From Kitasatospora sp. MBT63 (lineage in GTDB: Bacteria; Actinomycetota; Actinomycetes; Streptomycetales; Streptomycetaceae), in contig NZ_JAIZ01000517.1 in assembly GCF_000710465.2 (NCBI RefSeq), positions 1 through 64,000 on the forward strand: a DNA stretch of 64,000 bases. Direction: 5' to 3'. Numbering within the stretch: the stretch's first letter is position 1; each line of letters opens with the position of its first letter. A program made the translations under genes and the position numbers. The notes under the pieces were generated by a model. That model was not told the DNA's origin and searched no databases. It saw nothing but the letters and a program-made list of their open reading frames with translations. Shown one piece after another: positions 51,190 through 57,361 of this stretch.

Positions 51190-52100
51190 TGGCTCCCCCT
51201 CGGGGCCCGCGGACCGGTGAGGTCCGCCAGCCACAGCTTCTGCAGCATGTGCCAGTCCACCGAGTGCTCCCGGATGCCCTCGGCCCACACGTCGGCCAGC
51301 TCCTGGACCATCGCGGCCGTCCGCGAGCGCCGGTCGCCCTCGGCCGGCACCGCGATCTCCGGGTGGATCTCGGCCCGCAGCACCGGACCGTCGTACCAGA
51401 GCGTCACCGGGAACAGCGCCGCGCCGGTCTGCTGGGCCAGCGCCGCCGGGCCGGCCGGCATCCGGGTCGCCTCACCGAAGAAGTCCACCTGGATCCCGGC
51501 CTCGGACAGGTCCCGGTCGCCGACCAGGCAGACCAGGCCGCCCGCGCGCAGCCGCCGGGCCAGGGTGCCGATCACCGAGACCTCGCCGCCGGTGAGCGCC
51601 AGCACCTCCATGCCCAGGCCCTCGCGGTAGGCCACGAACCGGTCGAACAGCGACTCCGGCTTCAGCCGCTCGGCGACCGTGGTGAACGGGTAGCCGCCGG
51701 CCGAGGCGATCCACGCCCCGGCCAGGTCCCAGTTGGCCATGTGCGGCAGCGCCAGGACCGCGCCGCGCCCCGCCGACATCGCCTCGTTCAGCGGCTCGAG
51801 GTTCTTCACCGTTATGGCGTCGGCGATCCGGGCCAGGCTCCAGGCCGGCAGCCGGAACGACTCCATCCAGTACCGCAGGTAGGACCGCATGCCCGCGCGC
51901 GACAGCTCGCGCAGCCGGGCCGCGTCCGCCTCCGGGTGCACCCGGGCGAGGTTGGCCTCCAACTGCCGCACGCCCTTGCCCTGCTTGCGCCAGGCGGTGT
52001 CCGCGATCCGGTTGAACAGGCCGCGCGCCACCGGCTCGGGCAGCCGCTTCACGGCCGCCCAGCCCAGCGCGTAGGCCGAGTCGGCCAACCGCTCCTTCAC
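51186..52100 (-). CDS. Phosphatidylinositol mannoside acyltransferase (LpxL-type)
   Basis: A 304-residue LpxL/HtrB-family acyltransferase matching mycobacterial PatA, which acylates PIM. The HX4D motif is HMANWD in ALPHMANWDLAGAW; GDRDLSEAGI and the C-terminal QELADVWAE region are family-typical. One N-terminal membrane segment is possible. GTG 52100 overlaps pgsA by 4 bp, and its end overlaps pimA by 4 bp. Confidence 0.9.
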   Translation of the reverse strand: MKERLADSAYALGWAAVKRLPEPVARGLFNRIADTAWRKQGKGVRQLEANLARVHPEADAARLRELSRAGMRSYLRYWMESFRLPAWSLARIADAITVKNLEPLNEAMSAGRGAVLALPHMANWDLAGAWIASAGGYPFTTVAERLKPESLFDRFVAYREGLGMEVLALTGGEVSVIGTLARRLRAGGLVCLVGDRDLSEAGIQVDFFGEATRMPAGPAALAQQTGAALFPVTLWYDGPVLRAEIHPEIAVPAEGDRRSRTAAMVQELADVWAEGIREHSVDWHMLQKLWLADLTGPRAPRGSQ

Positions 52101-52765
52101 TCCGCCCCCTCGGCCGCGGCCGCCACCGCGGCGGCCCGGTCCAGCTCGATCGACTCCCGGCGGACCGTCAGGATCCGCTGCAGCATGGTCACCAGGCTGC
52201 CCGCCGCCACCACCCACAGCGCGAACGGCAGCAGCCACTCCACGTACGGCAGCCCGAAGGTGTGCAGCCCCGCGACACCGGCCGCGACCAGCGTGATCAC
52301 CAGCCGCTCGGCCCGCTCGACCAGACCGGAGACGTCCACCGGGAAGCCCAGGCTCTCGCCGCGCGCCTTGGTGTACGACACCACCTGGCCACTGGCCAGG
52401 CAGAAGATCGCGACCACGCAGAGCAGGTTGTTGTCGCCCTTCCCGGCGTACCACATCGCCAGGCCGCCGAAGATCGCCGCGTCCGCGACCCGGTCCAGCG
52501 TGGAGTCCAGGAACGCGCCCCACTTGCTGGAACGCCCCGCCTGGCGGGCCATGTTGCCGTCGACCAGGTCGGAGAAGATGAACAGGGTGATCGTGATGGT
52601 GCCCCAGAAGAACTCGCCCCGGGGGAAGAACACCAGCGCCCCGGCGACCGAGCCGGCGGTACCGATCAGCGTCACCGCGTCCGGGCTCACACCCCAGCGG
52701 AGCAGCAGGGCGGCGAACGGCGTCAGGACACGTGTGAAGAAGGCACGCGCGTATTTGTTGAGCAT
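52097..52765 (-). CDS. pgsA: Phosphatidylinositol phosphate synthase (CDP-alcohol phosphotransferase)
   Basis: A 222-residue membrane enzyme forming phosphatidylinositol phosphate from CDP-diacylglycerol and inositol phosphate. It holds the signature D66..D69-G70..A73-R74..G83...D87...D91 (SDLVDGNMARQ and KWGAFLDSTLDRVAD) and about six membrane helices. ATG 52765 follows GGAAGG closely. First gene of the PIM operon. Divergent from EF-G2. Confidence 0.93.
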   Translation of the reverse strand: MLNKYARAFFTRVLTPFAALLLRWGVSPDAVTLIGTAGSVAGALVFFPRGEFFWGTITITLFIFSDLVDGNMARQAGRSSKWGAFLDSTLDRVADAAIFGGLAMWYAGKGDNNLLCVVAIFCLASGQVVSYTKARGESLGFPVDVSGLVERAERLVITLVAAGVAGLHTFGLPYVEWLLPFALWVVAAGSLVTMLQRILTVRRESIELDRAAAVAAAAEGAE

Positions 52766-53012
52766 GGCCTTCCGGACCGCTCCGATTCTCGGGATCACGC
52801 TCCGGACCCTTGGCGGCACCGGGCGGCCGAGCGGATCGTCCCACCCGGCTGGACAATGGTATCCACGCTGCTCGCGCGCTCCGTCGCCCCACGCCCGCGA
52901 GCGGGTTCCCGGGCCAACTGGCCGCCACCGAGGGCAGTTCGGCACCAACGGGACGTGATCACCCCGTCCCCGACAGTAACGGACCAATGGGGCGTACGGA
53001 GGTGAGAAGAGC

Positions 53013-55055
53013 ATGCCGGACCGGACAGTCACCCACAGCCCCGCCCCCACCGTCGAGCGCCCCGACCAGCTGCGCAACGTCGTGCTGGTCGGCGCCAGCG
53101 GGGCCGGCAAGACCACGCTGGCGGAGTCCCTCGCGCTCACCGCCGGCGCCCTCACCAGGGCCGGAAGCGTCCCCGACGGGACCACCGTCGGCGACCACGA
53201 GGAGATCGAGCACCAGCAGCAGCGCTCCGTCCAGCTCTCGCTGATCCCGCTCGCCTGGCGCGACACCAAGATCAACCTGCTGGACGCGCCCGGCTACGCC
53301 GACTTCGCGGGCGAGCTGCAGGCCGCCCTGCGCGCCGCCGAGGCCGCCCTGTTCGTGATCTCCGCCACCGAACCCGTCGGACCGGCCGTACTCGCGCTCT
53401 GGCGCCAGTGCGCCGATGCGGGCCTGCCGCGGGCCGTCGTGCTCACCCACCTCAACGCGGCCCGGGTCCGCCTCGACGAGACCCTCACCGCGCTGCGGGC
53501 CGACCTCGCCGACGGCCGCACCGACACCCTGCTGCCGCTGCACCACTACACGCTCACCGACGGGCACCTGACCGGCTCGGTCGAACTGCTCACCGGCACC
53601 CGCCGCGGCGACCCGGGCGACAGCGGCGACCTGACCGCCGAGCGCAGCCTGCTGGCCGAGGCCATCGCCGGCGAGGACGACACCCTGCTGGAGCGCTACC
53701 TGGCCGGCGAGGAGCTCGACACCGGGGCACTGACGGCGGCGCTGCGCCGCGAACTGCGCCAGGACACCCTGCACCCCGTCCTCGCCACCGCGCCGCCCGC
53801 CGAACCCGGCGGCCCGGCCCCCGGCGCCGAGGAGTTGCTCGACCTGATCGCCGCCGCCTTCCCTTCCCCGCTGGAGCGGGCCGACGACCTCCCCGCCTGC
53901 GACGCCGACGCCCCGCTCGCCGCCCAGGTGATCCACACCGGCGAGGACCCGTACGTGGGCCGGCTCAGCCTCACCCGGGTGTTCTCCGGCACCCTGCGGC
54001 CCGACACCACGGTCGGGCTGCCGGGCCGCCCCGACGAGCGGATCACCGGCCTGAGCTGCCCGTTCGGCCGCCAGCAGCGCCCGGTCGGGCAGGGCACGGC
54101 GGGCGACATCGTCTGCGTCGCCAAGCTCGCCGGCGCCCGCACCGGCGACACCCTCACCACCGGACCCGACGTGCTCCCGCCCTGGCCGCTGCCGGAGTCC
54201 CTGCTGCCGGTCGCGGTCGAGGCGCACAGCAAGGCCGACGAGGACCGGCTCTCGCAGAGCCTCGCCAAGCTCGCCGCCCAGGACCCGGCGCTGCTGGTCG
54301 AGCAGAACCCCGACACCCACCAACTGGTGCTCTGGTGCACCGGCGAGGCCCACCAGGCGGTCGCCCTGGACCGGCTGCGCTCGCGCTACGGCGTGCACGT
54401 GGACGCGGTCCCGTACCGGGTGGCGCTGCGGGAGACCTTCGGCAGCCGGGCCGAGGGCCACGGCCGGCACGTCAAGCAGTCCGGCGGGCACGGCCAGTAC
54501 GCGATCTGCGACCTGACCGTGGAGCCGCTGCCCGGCGGCGGCTTCGAGTTCGTCGACCACGTGGTCGGCGGTTCGGTGCCGCGCAACTTCATCCCGTCCG
54601 TGGAGAAGGGGGTACGGGCCCAGCTCGCCCACGGGGTGCTGGCCGGCTACCCGGTGACCGACATCCGGGTCACCCTGACCGACGGCAAGGCGCACTCGGT
54701 GGACTCCTCCGACGCCGCGTTCCAGACCGCGGCCGCGCTCGCCCTCAAGGAGGCCGCCGGCCAGGCCAAGGTACAGCTGCTGGAACCCGTCGACGAGGTC
54801 CAGGTGATGCTGCCCGACGAGTACCAGGGCGCCGTGCTGAGCGACCTGTCCGCCCGGCGCGGGCACGTACTGGGCACCGAGCCCTGCGGCCCGGGTCTCA
54901 GCCTGGTCCGGGCCGAGGTCCCCGAGATCGAGCTGACCCACTACCCGGTGGACCTGCGCTCGCTCTCGCACGGCACCGGCAGCTTCTCCCGCAGCTACCT
55001 GCGGCACGCACCGATGCCGGCGGCGGTCGCGGCCCGCTACGAGAAGGCCTCCTGA
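53013..55055 (+). CDS. EF-G2-like translation GTPase (FusA2 type)
   Basis: A 680-residue EF-G paralogue. Domain I has P-loop GASGAGKTT (27-35), but G3 is DAPGY (91-95) instead of DTPGH, so the catalytic His is Tyr, and G4 NKxD is replaced by THLN. Domains II-V follow (for example GGHGQYAICDL and VDSSDAAFQTAAALA). This matches actinobacterial EF-G2, which in mycobacteria binds nucleotide but lacks ribosome-stimulated GTPase activity. It is not the main translocase. Function unknown. ATG 53013 follows GGAGG by 10 bases. Confidence 0.9.
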   Translation: MPDRTVTHSPAPTVERPDQLRNVVLVGASGAGKTTLAESLALTAGALTRAGSVPDGTTVGDHEEIEHQQQRSVQLSLIPLAWRDTKINLLDAPGYADFAGELQAALRAAEAALFVISATEPVGPAVLALWRQCADAGLPRAVVLTHLNAARVRLDETLTALRADLADGRTDTLLPLHHYTLTDGHLTGSVELLTGTRRGDPGDSGDLTAERSLLAEAIAGEDDTLLERYLAGEELDTGALTAALRRELRQDTLHPVLATAPPAEPGGPAPGAEELLDLIAAAFPSPLERADDLPACDADAPLAAQVIHTGEDPYVGRLSLTRVFSGTLRPDTTVGLPGRPDERITGLSCPFGRQQRPVGQGTAGDIVCVAKLAGARTGDTLTTGPDVLPPWPLPESLLPVAVEAHSKADEDRLSQSLAKLAAQDPALLVEQNPDTHQLVLWCTGEAHQAVALDRLRSRYGVHVDAVPYRVALRETFGSRAEGHGRHVKQSGGHGQYAICDLTVEPLPGGGFEFVDHVVGGSVPRNFIPSVEKGVRAQLAHGVLAGYPVTDIRVTLTDGKAHSVDSSDAAFQTAAALALKEAAGQAKVQLLEPVDEVQVMLPDEYQGAVLSDLSARRGHVLGTEPCGPGLSLVRAEVPEIELTHYPVDLRSLSHGTGSFSRSYLRHAPMPAAVAARYEKAS

Positions 55056-55078
55056 ACGCGGCGCCCACGAGGAGCCCG

Positions 55079-55109
55079 GGCGCGGACGGGTGTCAGCCGC
55101 GTCCGCGCC
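55079..55109. terminator. Candidate hairpin between EF-G2 and DCC genes
   Basis: GGCGCGGACG (55079-55088) pairs with CGTCCGCGCC (55100-55109) around an 11-base loop. It overlaps the last codons of the minus-strand DCC gene and could end EF-G2 transcription. Confidence 0.4.
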
Positions 55110-55527
55110 GCGGCAGCGCGCAGGCCGCGGTGCCGCCCGGGAAGCGGTGGCGGTTGCGGGCCGTGAAGCGGTAGACCGCCGCCGCCAGCGGCCGTACCGG
55201 CGCCAGCGTGAGGAACCCGCCCAGGTACGCCCAGGCGCCGCCGGAGCGCAGCAGCAGCCGGGCGGCCGCCTGCGCGCCCCCGTACACCTCGCCGGTCGGC
55301 GTCACCCACAGCACCTCCTGCCCGGCCCGCTCCTCGGTGACCAGGCCGCGTCCGCCGGCCCGCCGGTCCAGCGCCGCCAGGTCGGCGAACTGGTACGGCA
55401 CGGCGCTCCAGCCGCCCGAGGCGAGGGTCGCCCGCGGGTAGCGCTCCGCGAAGTTGACGCAGGTGGTGCAGAAACCGCAGTCGCCGTCGAAGACCAGTAC
55501 CGGGTCCCGCCGCATGTCCTCAGCCAT
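55093..55527 (-). CDS. DCC family thiol-disulfide oxidoreductase
   Basis: A 144-residue thioredoxin-like protein of the DCC family. The family motif is FDGDCGFC (13-20), giving the CxxC pair Cys17-Cys20, with a third Cys at 23. A C-terminal ARNRHRFPGG segment is also typical. Redox function is inferred; target unknown. ATG 55527 has AGGA upstream. It is convergent with EF-G2 and divergent from the unknown membrane protein. Confidence 0.85.
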   Translation of the reverse strand: MAEDMRRDPVLVFDGDCGFCTTCVNFAERYPRATLASGGWSAVPYQFADLAALDRRAGGRGLVTEERAGQEVLWVTPTGEVYGGAQAAARLLLRSGGAWAYLGGFLTLAPVRPLAAAVYRFTARNRHRFPGGTAACALPRRGRG

Positions 55528-55720
55528 GCCCCGATCCTGCCTCATCCGGACGCCCCCGGAAGACAACCGATCGGCGGAGGATCGAAGCGCGCCGCGAACG
55601 GGCACCATCAGGGACGGGACCGGTGGTGGCCGAGATGTGACAGCGGTTCAGACGATCATCCACGCGACGGGGCGGCGGCACGGTAACCTGCCGCTGACAA
55701 GGGGAGGAGGGCCTGCCACA

Positions 55721-57361
55721 GTGAGCCAGCTCGACATGACCCCGGGTGCGCAGATACCCCGGACGGACGTCGGCAACCAGACCGCGGTCACCCAGGCGCT
55801 CTCCTCGGCGGCCTACCGCGACGGCGACTACAAGGTGCTCGGCGACCTCGCCGGGGTCAAGGTCAAGGAGGGCAAGTTCGCCCTCTTCCGGCCGAGCGCC
55901 GGTGAGGCCTTCAGCCGCGCCCTGCTCGACCGCACCCTGCCGCCCAAGCGCAATCCGCTGGTGCCCTCCTTCGGCACCGACGTCCGGATGGTGGTCGAGC
56001 ACTGCCTGGCCGCCCAGGACCTGCGGGACGCCCGGGACCGCCAGCTCAGCACCGTCACCGTGCTCTGCGGCGGGATCTTCCTGCCCGGCACCCTGATCTG
56101 GCTGGCCGCCTACCAGGTGCGCGCGTACTTCGCCAAGGCCGGTTCGGCCCGCGACGGCTTCTTCGGCACCCTGGCCCTGCTGGCCGCCGCCGCGCTGGCC
56201 GTGCTGTTCGCCGTCCGGCCGCCGGTCGGCGGGGTCTGGGGGCTGTACTTCCGGGTCATGATGCTGGGCCCGGTGGCCGGCTGGTTCCTGGCCAAGCGGA
56301 TCGCGCTGCGCTCCACGGTCGAACTCCGTTCGCGCTGGGGCGGTCTGGTCGAGGGCAGTGCGGTCGCCGCCACCGTGCCCAAGGCGGTCCCCCGGGACCA
56401 CCTCGACAAGAAGGCCACCGAACTCAAGGGCTCGCTGGACCGTCTGACGGCGGAGCAGGAGACCAACGTCCACCACTACGCCGGCACCAAGGGCATCCTG
56501 GGGGTCGGCGCCCGCTGGGCGAACTGGGACCTCTCCGAGGACCTGCGGCCCGCCGAGGGCCACGAGGACTTCCGCACCTTCCACATCTACGACCTGGCCC
56601 GCAAGATCGCCGACCGGCTCGGCTCGCTGGCCACCAGCGAGATCCCGAACGGCGCGATGCCCCGGCCCGCCGTCCACCAGTGGGTGGTCCAGGACATCCC
56701 GGAGGGCGCGGACGAGATCGGCCGGCCCGGCGGCAGCGAGATGGACGGCTTCCGGATGCGCGACTTCGCCGTCGGCGAGGTGGCCAATCGGCAGACCTAC
56801 GGCACCGACCTGCGGCACCGGATCGCGGTGCAGTTCGTGCTGCACAAGGGCCAGCTGGTGGCGACCCTGCTGGTGGACATCTCGGTGCTGCACAACAACC
56901 TGCGGGTCAGCGTGGCCGGCCACGCGCTGGGGCCGATCGCCGGCTACTTCACGGGCAAGCCCAAGCCCAAGGAGAAGAACGTCGCCAAGCCGGTCCGGTT
57001 CTGGGAGGAGCAGACCGTCCAGCTCTCCCTGGTGGACAACGACGAGGTGGTCCGGCAGGCGGTGCGGGCGCCGTTCATGCGCATCCCGACCCTGCTCACC
57101 TGGCTGGGCGGCTCGGTCGGGCTGCCGGAGCCGTTCAGCCTGCGCGCGTCCTGGGCGGACAAGACCTGGCCGAGCCGGTTCAAGTCGGACGACGTGATCC
57201 AGGGGGCGACCCCGGTGGTGAACGTCATCCTGGCCGCAACGATGGACTTCCTGGACGAGCACGACGTCTCCACCGACCGCTTCACCAACCGCTCGAACAT
57301 CATGAAGTCCGAGATGCAGGGCGCCCGTCCGTACCACGCGGACCGCTACGACGCCGGCTGA
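55721..57361 (+). CDS. Large membrane protein of unknown function
   Basis: A 546-residue protein I do not recognise. GTG 55721 lies 10 bases after GGGGAGGAGG. It has three probable transmembrane helices (about 110-131, 147-165 and 173-193) between an N-terminal soluble part (to 108) and a long C-terminal region (195-546) with no clear catalytic motif, rich in Arg/Asp/Glu and ending in KSEMQGARP. The C-terminal domain may be cytoplasmic. It stands alone, ending at a bidirectional terminator shared with the HIT gene. Probably specific to actinobacteria. Confidence 0.75.
   Translation: MSQLDMTPGAQIPRTDVGNQTAVTQALSSAAYRDGDYKVLGDLAGVKVKEGKFALFRPSAGEAFSRALLDRTLPPKRNPLVPSFGTDVRMVVEHCLAAQDLRDARDRQLSTVTVLCGGIFLPGTLIWLAAYQVRAYFAKAGSARDGFFGTLALLAAAALAVLFAVRPPVGGVWGLYFRVMMLGPVAGWFLAKRIALRSTVELRSRWGGLVEGSAVAATVPKAVPRDHLDKKATELKGSLDRLTAEQETNVHHYAGTKGILGVGARWANWDLSEDLRPAEGHEDFRTFHIYDLARKIADRLGSLATSEIPNGAMPRPAVHQWVVQDIPEGADEIGRPGGSEMDGFRMRDFAVGEVANRQTYGTDLRHRIAVQFVLHKGQLVATLLVDISVLHNNLRVSVAGHALGPIAGYFTGKPKPKEKNVAKPVRFWEEQTVQLSLVDNDEVVRQAVRAPFMRIPTLLTWLGGSVGLPEPFSLRASWADKTWPSRFKSDDVIQGATPVVNVILAATMDFLDEHDVSTDRFTNRSNIMKSEMQGARPYHADRYDAG

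Follow-up and report, generated by a model that had tools for sequence, protein, structure and literature searches.

EF-G2 genes of one Kitasatospora clade lack the guanine-reading acid of the G4 motif

What does an EF-G-like protein do when its G3 and G4 motifs depart from the canonical ones? The question is raised by an open reading frame of 680 aa at 53013-55055 (forward strand) of a 64,000-nucleotide stretch from Kitasatospora sp. MBT63, called here the window. An earlier note took this gene for an EF-G2 with mutated G3 and G4 motifs, in the middle of phospholipid genes, and left its role between a nucleotide-binding ribosome factor and a non-translational sensor. The translation of the frame bears out the two motifs, DAPGY at residues 91-95 and THLN at residues 145-148. 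The features of the locus are the following; clade A is the Kitasatospora clade of the window gene, described below.

52097..52928, reverse strand: phosphatidylinositol phosphate synthase (pgsA-like); the start is approximate, 52928 being a rough upper limit (the mechanical ORF runs to 53275).
52998..53005, forward strand: Shine-Dalgarno-like GGAGGTGA, 7 nt 5' of the ATG at 53013, read from the sequence.
53013..55055, forward strand: EF-G2 (EFG II) gene, 680 aa with five EF-G domains, from profile matches and the tree.
53091..53117, forward strand: G1/P-loop GASGAGKTT (residues 27-35), with Gly32 and Lys33 identical in 26/26 clade A rows.
53214..53231, forward strand: switch I QQQRSV (residues 68-73), the actinobacterial EFG II version of RGITI, from the alignment.
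53283..53297, forward strand: G3 DAPGY (residues 91-95), with Tyr95 at the position of E. coli His91, from the alignment.
53445..53456, forward strand: G4 THLN (residues 145-148), with Asn148 in place of Asp/Glu, from the alignment.
54417..54770, forward strand: domain IV (residues 469-586), with strongly conserved tip loops SGGHGQ and KAHSVDSSD, from Pfam and the alignment.
55454..57361, forward strand: protein without Pfam or NCBIfam match, probably a membrane protein (judged by eye); the start is approximate.

The match to NF009377, the position on the EF-G2 side of the tree and a locus shared with EF-G2 of the Streptomyces type together identify the gene, by its sequence, as an actinobacterial EF-G2 (EFG II) ortholog. 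NF009377 (elongation factor G-like protein EF-G2) is the best NCBIfam model of the protein (E 8e-265); the score of 880.6 bits lies 9.4 bits below the cut-off of 890, which is a naming threshold and not a biological feature. The cut-offs of the canonical EF-G model TIGR00484 (376.4 against 659.4 bits) and of the tetracycline ribosomal protection protein model NF012153 (252 against 775 bits) are not reached. By Pfam the protein contains the GTP-binding domain together with EF-G domains II, III, IV and V. Contigs C424 and C575 of the same genome each carry another EF-G-type gene with DTPGH and NKLD, and the window protein groups with EF-G2 and apart from both of them (SH-aLRT 100, with a long outgroup branch). 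The gene on C575 was first labelled a ribosomal protection protein in the tree; this label was rejected, since NCBIfam names it EF-G and it passes TIGR00484 with 758.4 against 659.4 bits. The nearest named relatives of the window EF-G2 are mostly from Kitasatospora, with some filed as Streptomyces or Saccharothrix. The gene has a GC3 of 97% and contains no TTA codon, and a sigma-70-type scan of 52700-55700 found no promoter-like site.

For the motif counts, 178 proteins longer than 600 aa were taken from the loci numbered up to L183, with the shorter proteins of L067-L069, L071 and L072 excluded (the genes of L068, L069 and L071 are cut by contig ends). Removal of L001-L003, L073, L105 and of identical sequences leaves 146 rows, to which 44 rows from L214-L257 were added; L184-L213 stand outside these counts. 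Since L234 and L250 are one gene, the 190 rows represent 189 genes. The sample is non-exhaustive: 296 genomes of the class were drawn, and the figures come from among the best matches listed.

The Tyr of DAPGY is what most members of the family have. Of the 189 genes, 143 carry Tyr as the switch-II residue, 44 His, one Phe and one Arg; His occurs in two Kitasatospora clades, in Rhodococcus and in two rows of one other family. Hence, the reading of the G3 Tyr as a new mutation of the window gene was rejected.

The G4 motif behaves differently, and here the mutation supposed by the earlier note is real. Outside clade A the fourth G4 residue is an acid in 163/163 genes (Asp in 118, Glu in 45), whereas in the 26 clade A rows it is N (21), G (2), H (2) or S (1) and never an acid, with Thr145 and His146 identical in all of them. 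Thus, among the 189 genes examined only the Kitasatospora clade of the window is without the guanine-reading acid. Because the missing acid is itself what defined clade A, the 26/163 split draws its meaning from the tree. Calculated without the G3 and G4 columns, the tree unites the 13 rows of the clade that it contains (SH-aLRT 100) and needs a single loss. The same loss throughout a whole supported clade is more than chance, and at the level of sequence we regard G4 as a clean clade-specific loss. The conserved acids specific to clade A are E110, which replaces an Asp, and D291 and E311, which lie after G5; by sequence position none of these sites places a new acid beside G4 or G5. EFG II has been described as having a qqRSV switch I and a conserved NKxD (PMC3150367, section 13). 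The window protein has the former and not an NKxD-type G4, so clade A departs from the published picture. A passage on M. tuberculosis EF-G2 likewise gives G1, G3 and G4 as conserved, with QQRSV in place of RGITI (PMC8446442).

Gly32, Lys33, Thr34, Arg71, Ser72, Asp91, Pro93, Gly94, Asp97 and Phe98 are identical in 26/26 clade A rows, and Ser72 of the window protein occupies the position of the Mg-binding Thr of switch I. Judging from these residues, the phosphate and Mg side of the pocket is kept in clade A and the base side is not. Measured against domain IV, the G core of clade A has about double the rate of evolution seen in the other groups. On a fixed topology of 67 rows, with the four G4 columns included in the G core, the G core/domain IV ratio of tree lengths is 2.13 in clade A against 1.14, 1.00, 1.07 and 1.27 in four other groups, and in none of 60 site bootstraps did it come down to the value of another group; the ratio of pairwise distances is 1.93 against 1.23-1.40. 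For the G core, Nei-Gojobori dN/dS reaches 0.51 in clade A against 0.17-0.30 in the other groups, values which are rough at GC3 of about 97% and come from non-independent pairs. It is highest in clade A in four of six domains, domains III and V being the exceptions. Domain II also evolves fast in the Kitasatospora groups; the change thus extends beyond the nucleotide pocket. The tip loops of domain IV are strongly conserved in all five groups compared.

A predicted model of the window EF-G2, built on a 55-sequence alignment, has a mean pLDDT of 87.2 and a pTM of 0.85. The closest solved relative by sequence is 9k0z, entitled EF-G2 bound 70S ribosome complex of M. smegmatis (55% identity, 652 residues aligned, Z 40.5, rmsd 3.3); by Z it ranks 13th, behind canonical and mitochondrial EF-Gs with values up to 46.0. 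It shows ribosome binding for a member of the family and not for the window protein itself, for which binding may be proposed by analogy. Our literature search found no publication on PDB 9K0Z or on MSMEG_6535, and the passages obtained contained no treatment of Streptomyces EF-G2.

Known systems resemble the window protein to different extents. M. smegmatis EF-G2 (FusA2) is of the same ortholog family, with QQRSV in switch I and Tyr in G3 in the form DTPGY, but has TKLD in G4; passages of PMC3832671 and PMC3150367 state that it binds guanine nucleotides and is without ribosome-dependent GTPase. The Streptomyces-type EF-G2 (THLE/THLD) shares the locus, the G3 Tyr and the Lys to His change of G4, but retains an acid as the last G4 residue in 49/49 rows. 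For the M. smegmatis protein, Seshadri 2009 is said to be the source of both the guanine-nucleotide binding and the lack of ribosome-dependent GTPase. Canonical EF-G (EFG I) has the same five-domain fold, P-loop, DxPG and domain IV and differs by His in G3, NKxD in G4 and a switch I of the RGITI type. The EF-G2 of Bacteroides thetaiotaomicron (BT2167, PDB 8dmf) is also an EF-G paralogue, itself solved on the ribosome, but has 27% identity and, according to passages on it, is induced by carbon limitation; it is said there to enable GTP-independent translation (PMC10294740). Such a mode has thus been claimed elsewhere already. A ribosome-dependent GTPase is described for Thermus EF-G2, another EFG II, and a passage of PMC4342817 says that EFG II can replace EF-G with slow translocation; lack of hydrolysis is thus no property of the whole subfamily.

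We suggest, with slightly less than even confidence, that the window protein is an EF-G paralogue which binds the ribosome and hydrolyses nucleotide weakly or not at all, and that in clade A its nucleotide pocket has either lost its base specificity or become optional. By analogy with the M. smegmatis complex it would bind the factor site and the A site of the 70S ribosome. It would not run the canonical ribosome-triggered GTPase cycle, with hydrolysis weak or absent; a nucleotide may still be held via its phosphates without selectivity for guanine, or occupancy of the pocket may be optional. The protein would then act by binding, either as a ribosome occupier or as a slow, hydrolysis-independent translocase, and its setting, by analogy, might be starvation, stationary phase or development, beside the two EF-Gs with canonical motifs. 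The earlier note had expected both nucleotide specificity and hydrolysis to differ from EF-G. The former expectation probably stands, since G4 is without the guanine-reading acid; the latter is not new, lack of ribosome-dependent GTPase having been reported already for M. smegmatis EF-G2 in the passages cited above. Its proposal of a nucleotide-binding ribosome factor remains, given the nearest solved relative on the M. smegmatis 70S, what we take for the best reading.

The phospholipid surroundings are confirmed as well. EF-G2 is divergent from the genes of the phosphatidylinositol phosphate synthase, a PIM acyltransferase and a GT4 glycosyltransferase, and on its 3' side lie the protein of no known family, a HIT protein and ThrRS. 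The pgsA gene is found upstream of EF-G2 in 26/26 clade A loci, 25/25 of Kitasatospora clade D, 42/43 of the Streptomyces type (Actinacidiphila counted in) and 20/25 of the TKxD type, mostly from other families, but in 0/13 of Kitasatospora clade BC, 0/7 of Rhodococcus and 0/5 of Nocardia. The protein at 55454-57361 follows EF-G2 directly on the same strand in 26/26 clade A, 44/44 Streptomyces-type and 22/24 clade D loci tested. This context is an old gene order, and as EF-G2 copies away from the locus exist, it is no argument for a role in phospholipid synthesis. EF-G2 is common, not universal: at least 181 of the 296 class genomes have it over the cut-off among the matches listed, 236 of 249 family genomes have a match below E 1e-100 (counted by eye) and 13 have none, and one of 70 genus genomes is without an EF-G2-like match.

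Other explanations have to be weighed against a base-unspecific or optional pocket. It is conceivable, though in our view rather unlikely, that G4 has drifted neutrally: GTP would still be bound specifically via other contacts, THLN would be a tolerated variant of THLE/THLD, and the protein would function as other actinobacterial EF-G2s do. The K to H and D to E changes are found already in Streptomyces-type relatives, and the identity of T145 and H146 throughout clade A also fits. Moreover, 43.3% of 298 solved GTP-protein complexes are reported to lack NKXD and yet to bind guanine, which also counts against the reading that we prefer. Neutral drift has to be reconciled, however, with an acid that is missing in 26/26 clade A rows and in 0/163 others, with a fourth position that then varies among N, G, H and S, with the accelerated G core and with the absence of a new acid near G4 or G5 among the clade-specific sites. 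In EF-Tu, D to N in NKxD is the classical laboratory switch from GTP to XTP; our literature search found no paper on EF-Tu D138N with xanthosine. By this precedent the same replacement could retune the pocket to XTP, ITP, ATP or an alarmone, so that the factor would read a different metabolite on the ribosome. Although N occupies the position in 21/26 clade A rows, G, H or S stands there in five, so a precise new specificity is hardly likely, and we consider such a switch improbable.

Decay, with EF-G2 dispensable in Kitasatospora and its G domain eroding toward gene loss, also appears quite unlikely. It agrees with the raised dN/dS in four of six domains, with the lack of an EF-G2-like match in 1/70 genus and 13/249 family genomes (the latter by eye, E above 1e-100), with a frame break near the C terminus of L029, one of the 26 clade A rows, and with frame breaks in L067, a gene of less than 600 aa outside the 26 whose neighbours are intact. 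It has against it that 25/26 clade A rows, selected at 600 aa or more, reach the normal C terminus or stop a few residues short of it (L023, L027), and that the P-loop, G3 and switch I residues have not changed and the tip of domain IV is conserved. Adjacent genes are broken too in L072 and at the second copy of L073, which points to sequence or assembly error, and frame-broken copies were rejected as firm evidence of decay. The non-translational sensor of the earlier note would tie nucleotide sensing to phospholipid synthesis, as the stable place beside the PI-phosphate synthase and PIM genes might suggest. We found no positive evidence for it; the conserved domain IV tip, the M. smegmatis relative solved on the 70S and the copies of Kitasatospora clade BC, Rhodococcus and Nocardia away from phospholipid genes all argue against it, and we regard it as very improbable. 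At L073 (G010) itself there are two equally scoring EF-G2 copies plus another stretch that is frame-broken and has broken neighbours, probably an assembly artefact.

It is possible, although we hold it doubtful, that clade A has naturally given up guanine specificity and kept the phosphate grip and the ribosome-reaching domain, being an EF-G gated by any NTP or working without a nucleotide cycle, while the sister clade with His and a Lys/Asp G4 probably returned to the canonical state. Why EF-G needs GTP hydrolysis is a long-standing question, and a natural series for asking what this GTPase is for would then be available: the natural differences among EF-G2s in switch II (Tyr/His) and G4 (TKLD, THLE, THLN, AKLD) allow a side-by-side comparison. 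The Tyr half of the original observation is ordinary; the G4 half is worth testing.

We note several observations on the other groups. The sister Kitasatospora clade D (L031, L036, L054 and others) occupies the same locus and has the canonical-looking DPPGH with AKLD/AKFD, to which it probably reverted from Tyr and His. In the tree the root separates the Kitasatospora-Rhodococcus clades from everything else, which contradicts the expected species relations and comes with a very long outgroup branch; for clades D and BC, a change from Tyr to His is therefore the direction that gene order and species relations suggest. In clade BC (L033, L055, L060, L116, L121 and others) EF-G2 is of the TRMD/THMD type and away from the pgsA locus in 13/13 cases, by relocation or replacement.

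The five Nocardia genes (L142, L148, L159, L173, L179) are of the THLD type and all at another locus, and the two of them included in the tree fall next to the Streptomyces type; transfer is possible. Rhodococcus EF-G2 nests in clade D, and in the seven Rhodococcus genomes no other gene exceeds 860 bits for the EF-G2 model (the runner-up reaches about 510), which points to lateral transfer, by the look of the locus into the region of smpB and tmRNA. Six of the seven loci (L118, L125, L126, L129, L137 and L167, not L123) have a tmRNA gene about 2.3-2.4 kb upstream of EF-G2, and in the two inspected, L118 and L125, an smpB-like gene (Pfam SmpB for L118) runs convergently toward EF-G2 and abuts or almost abuts it.
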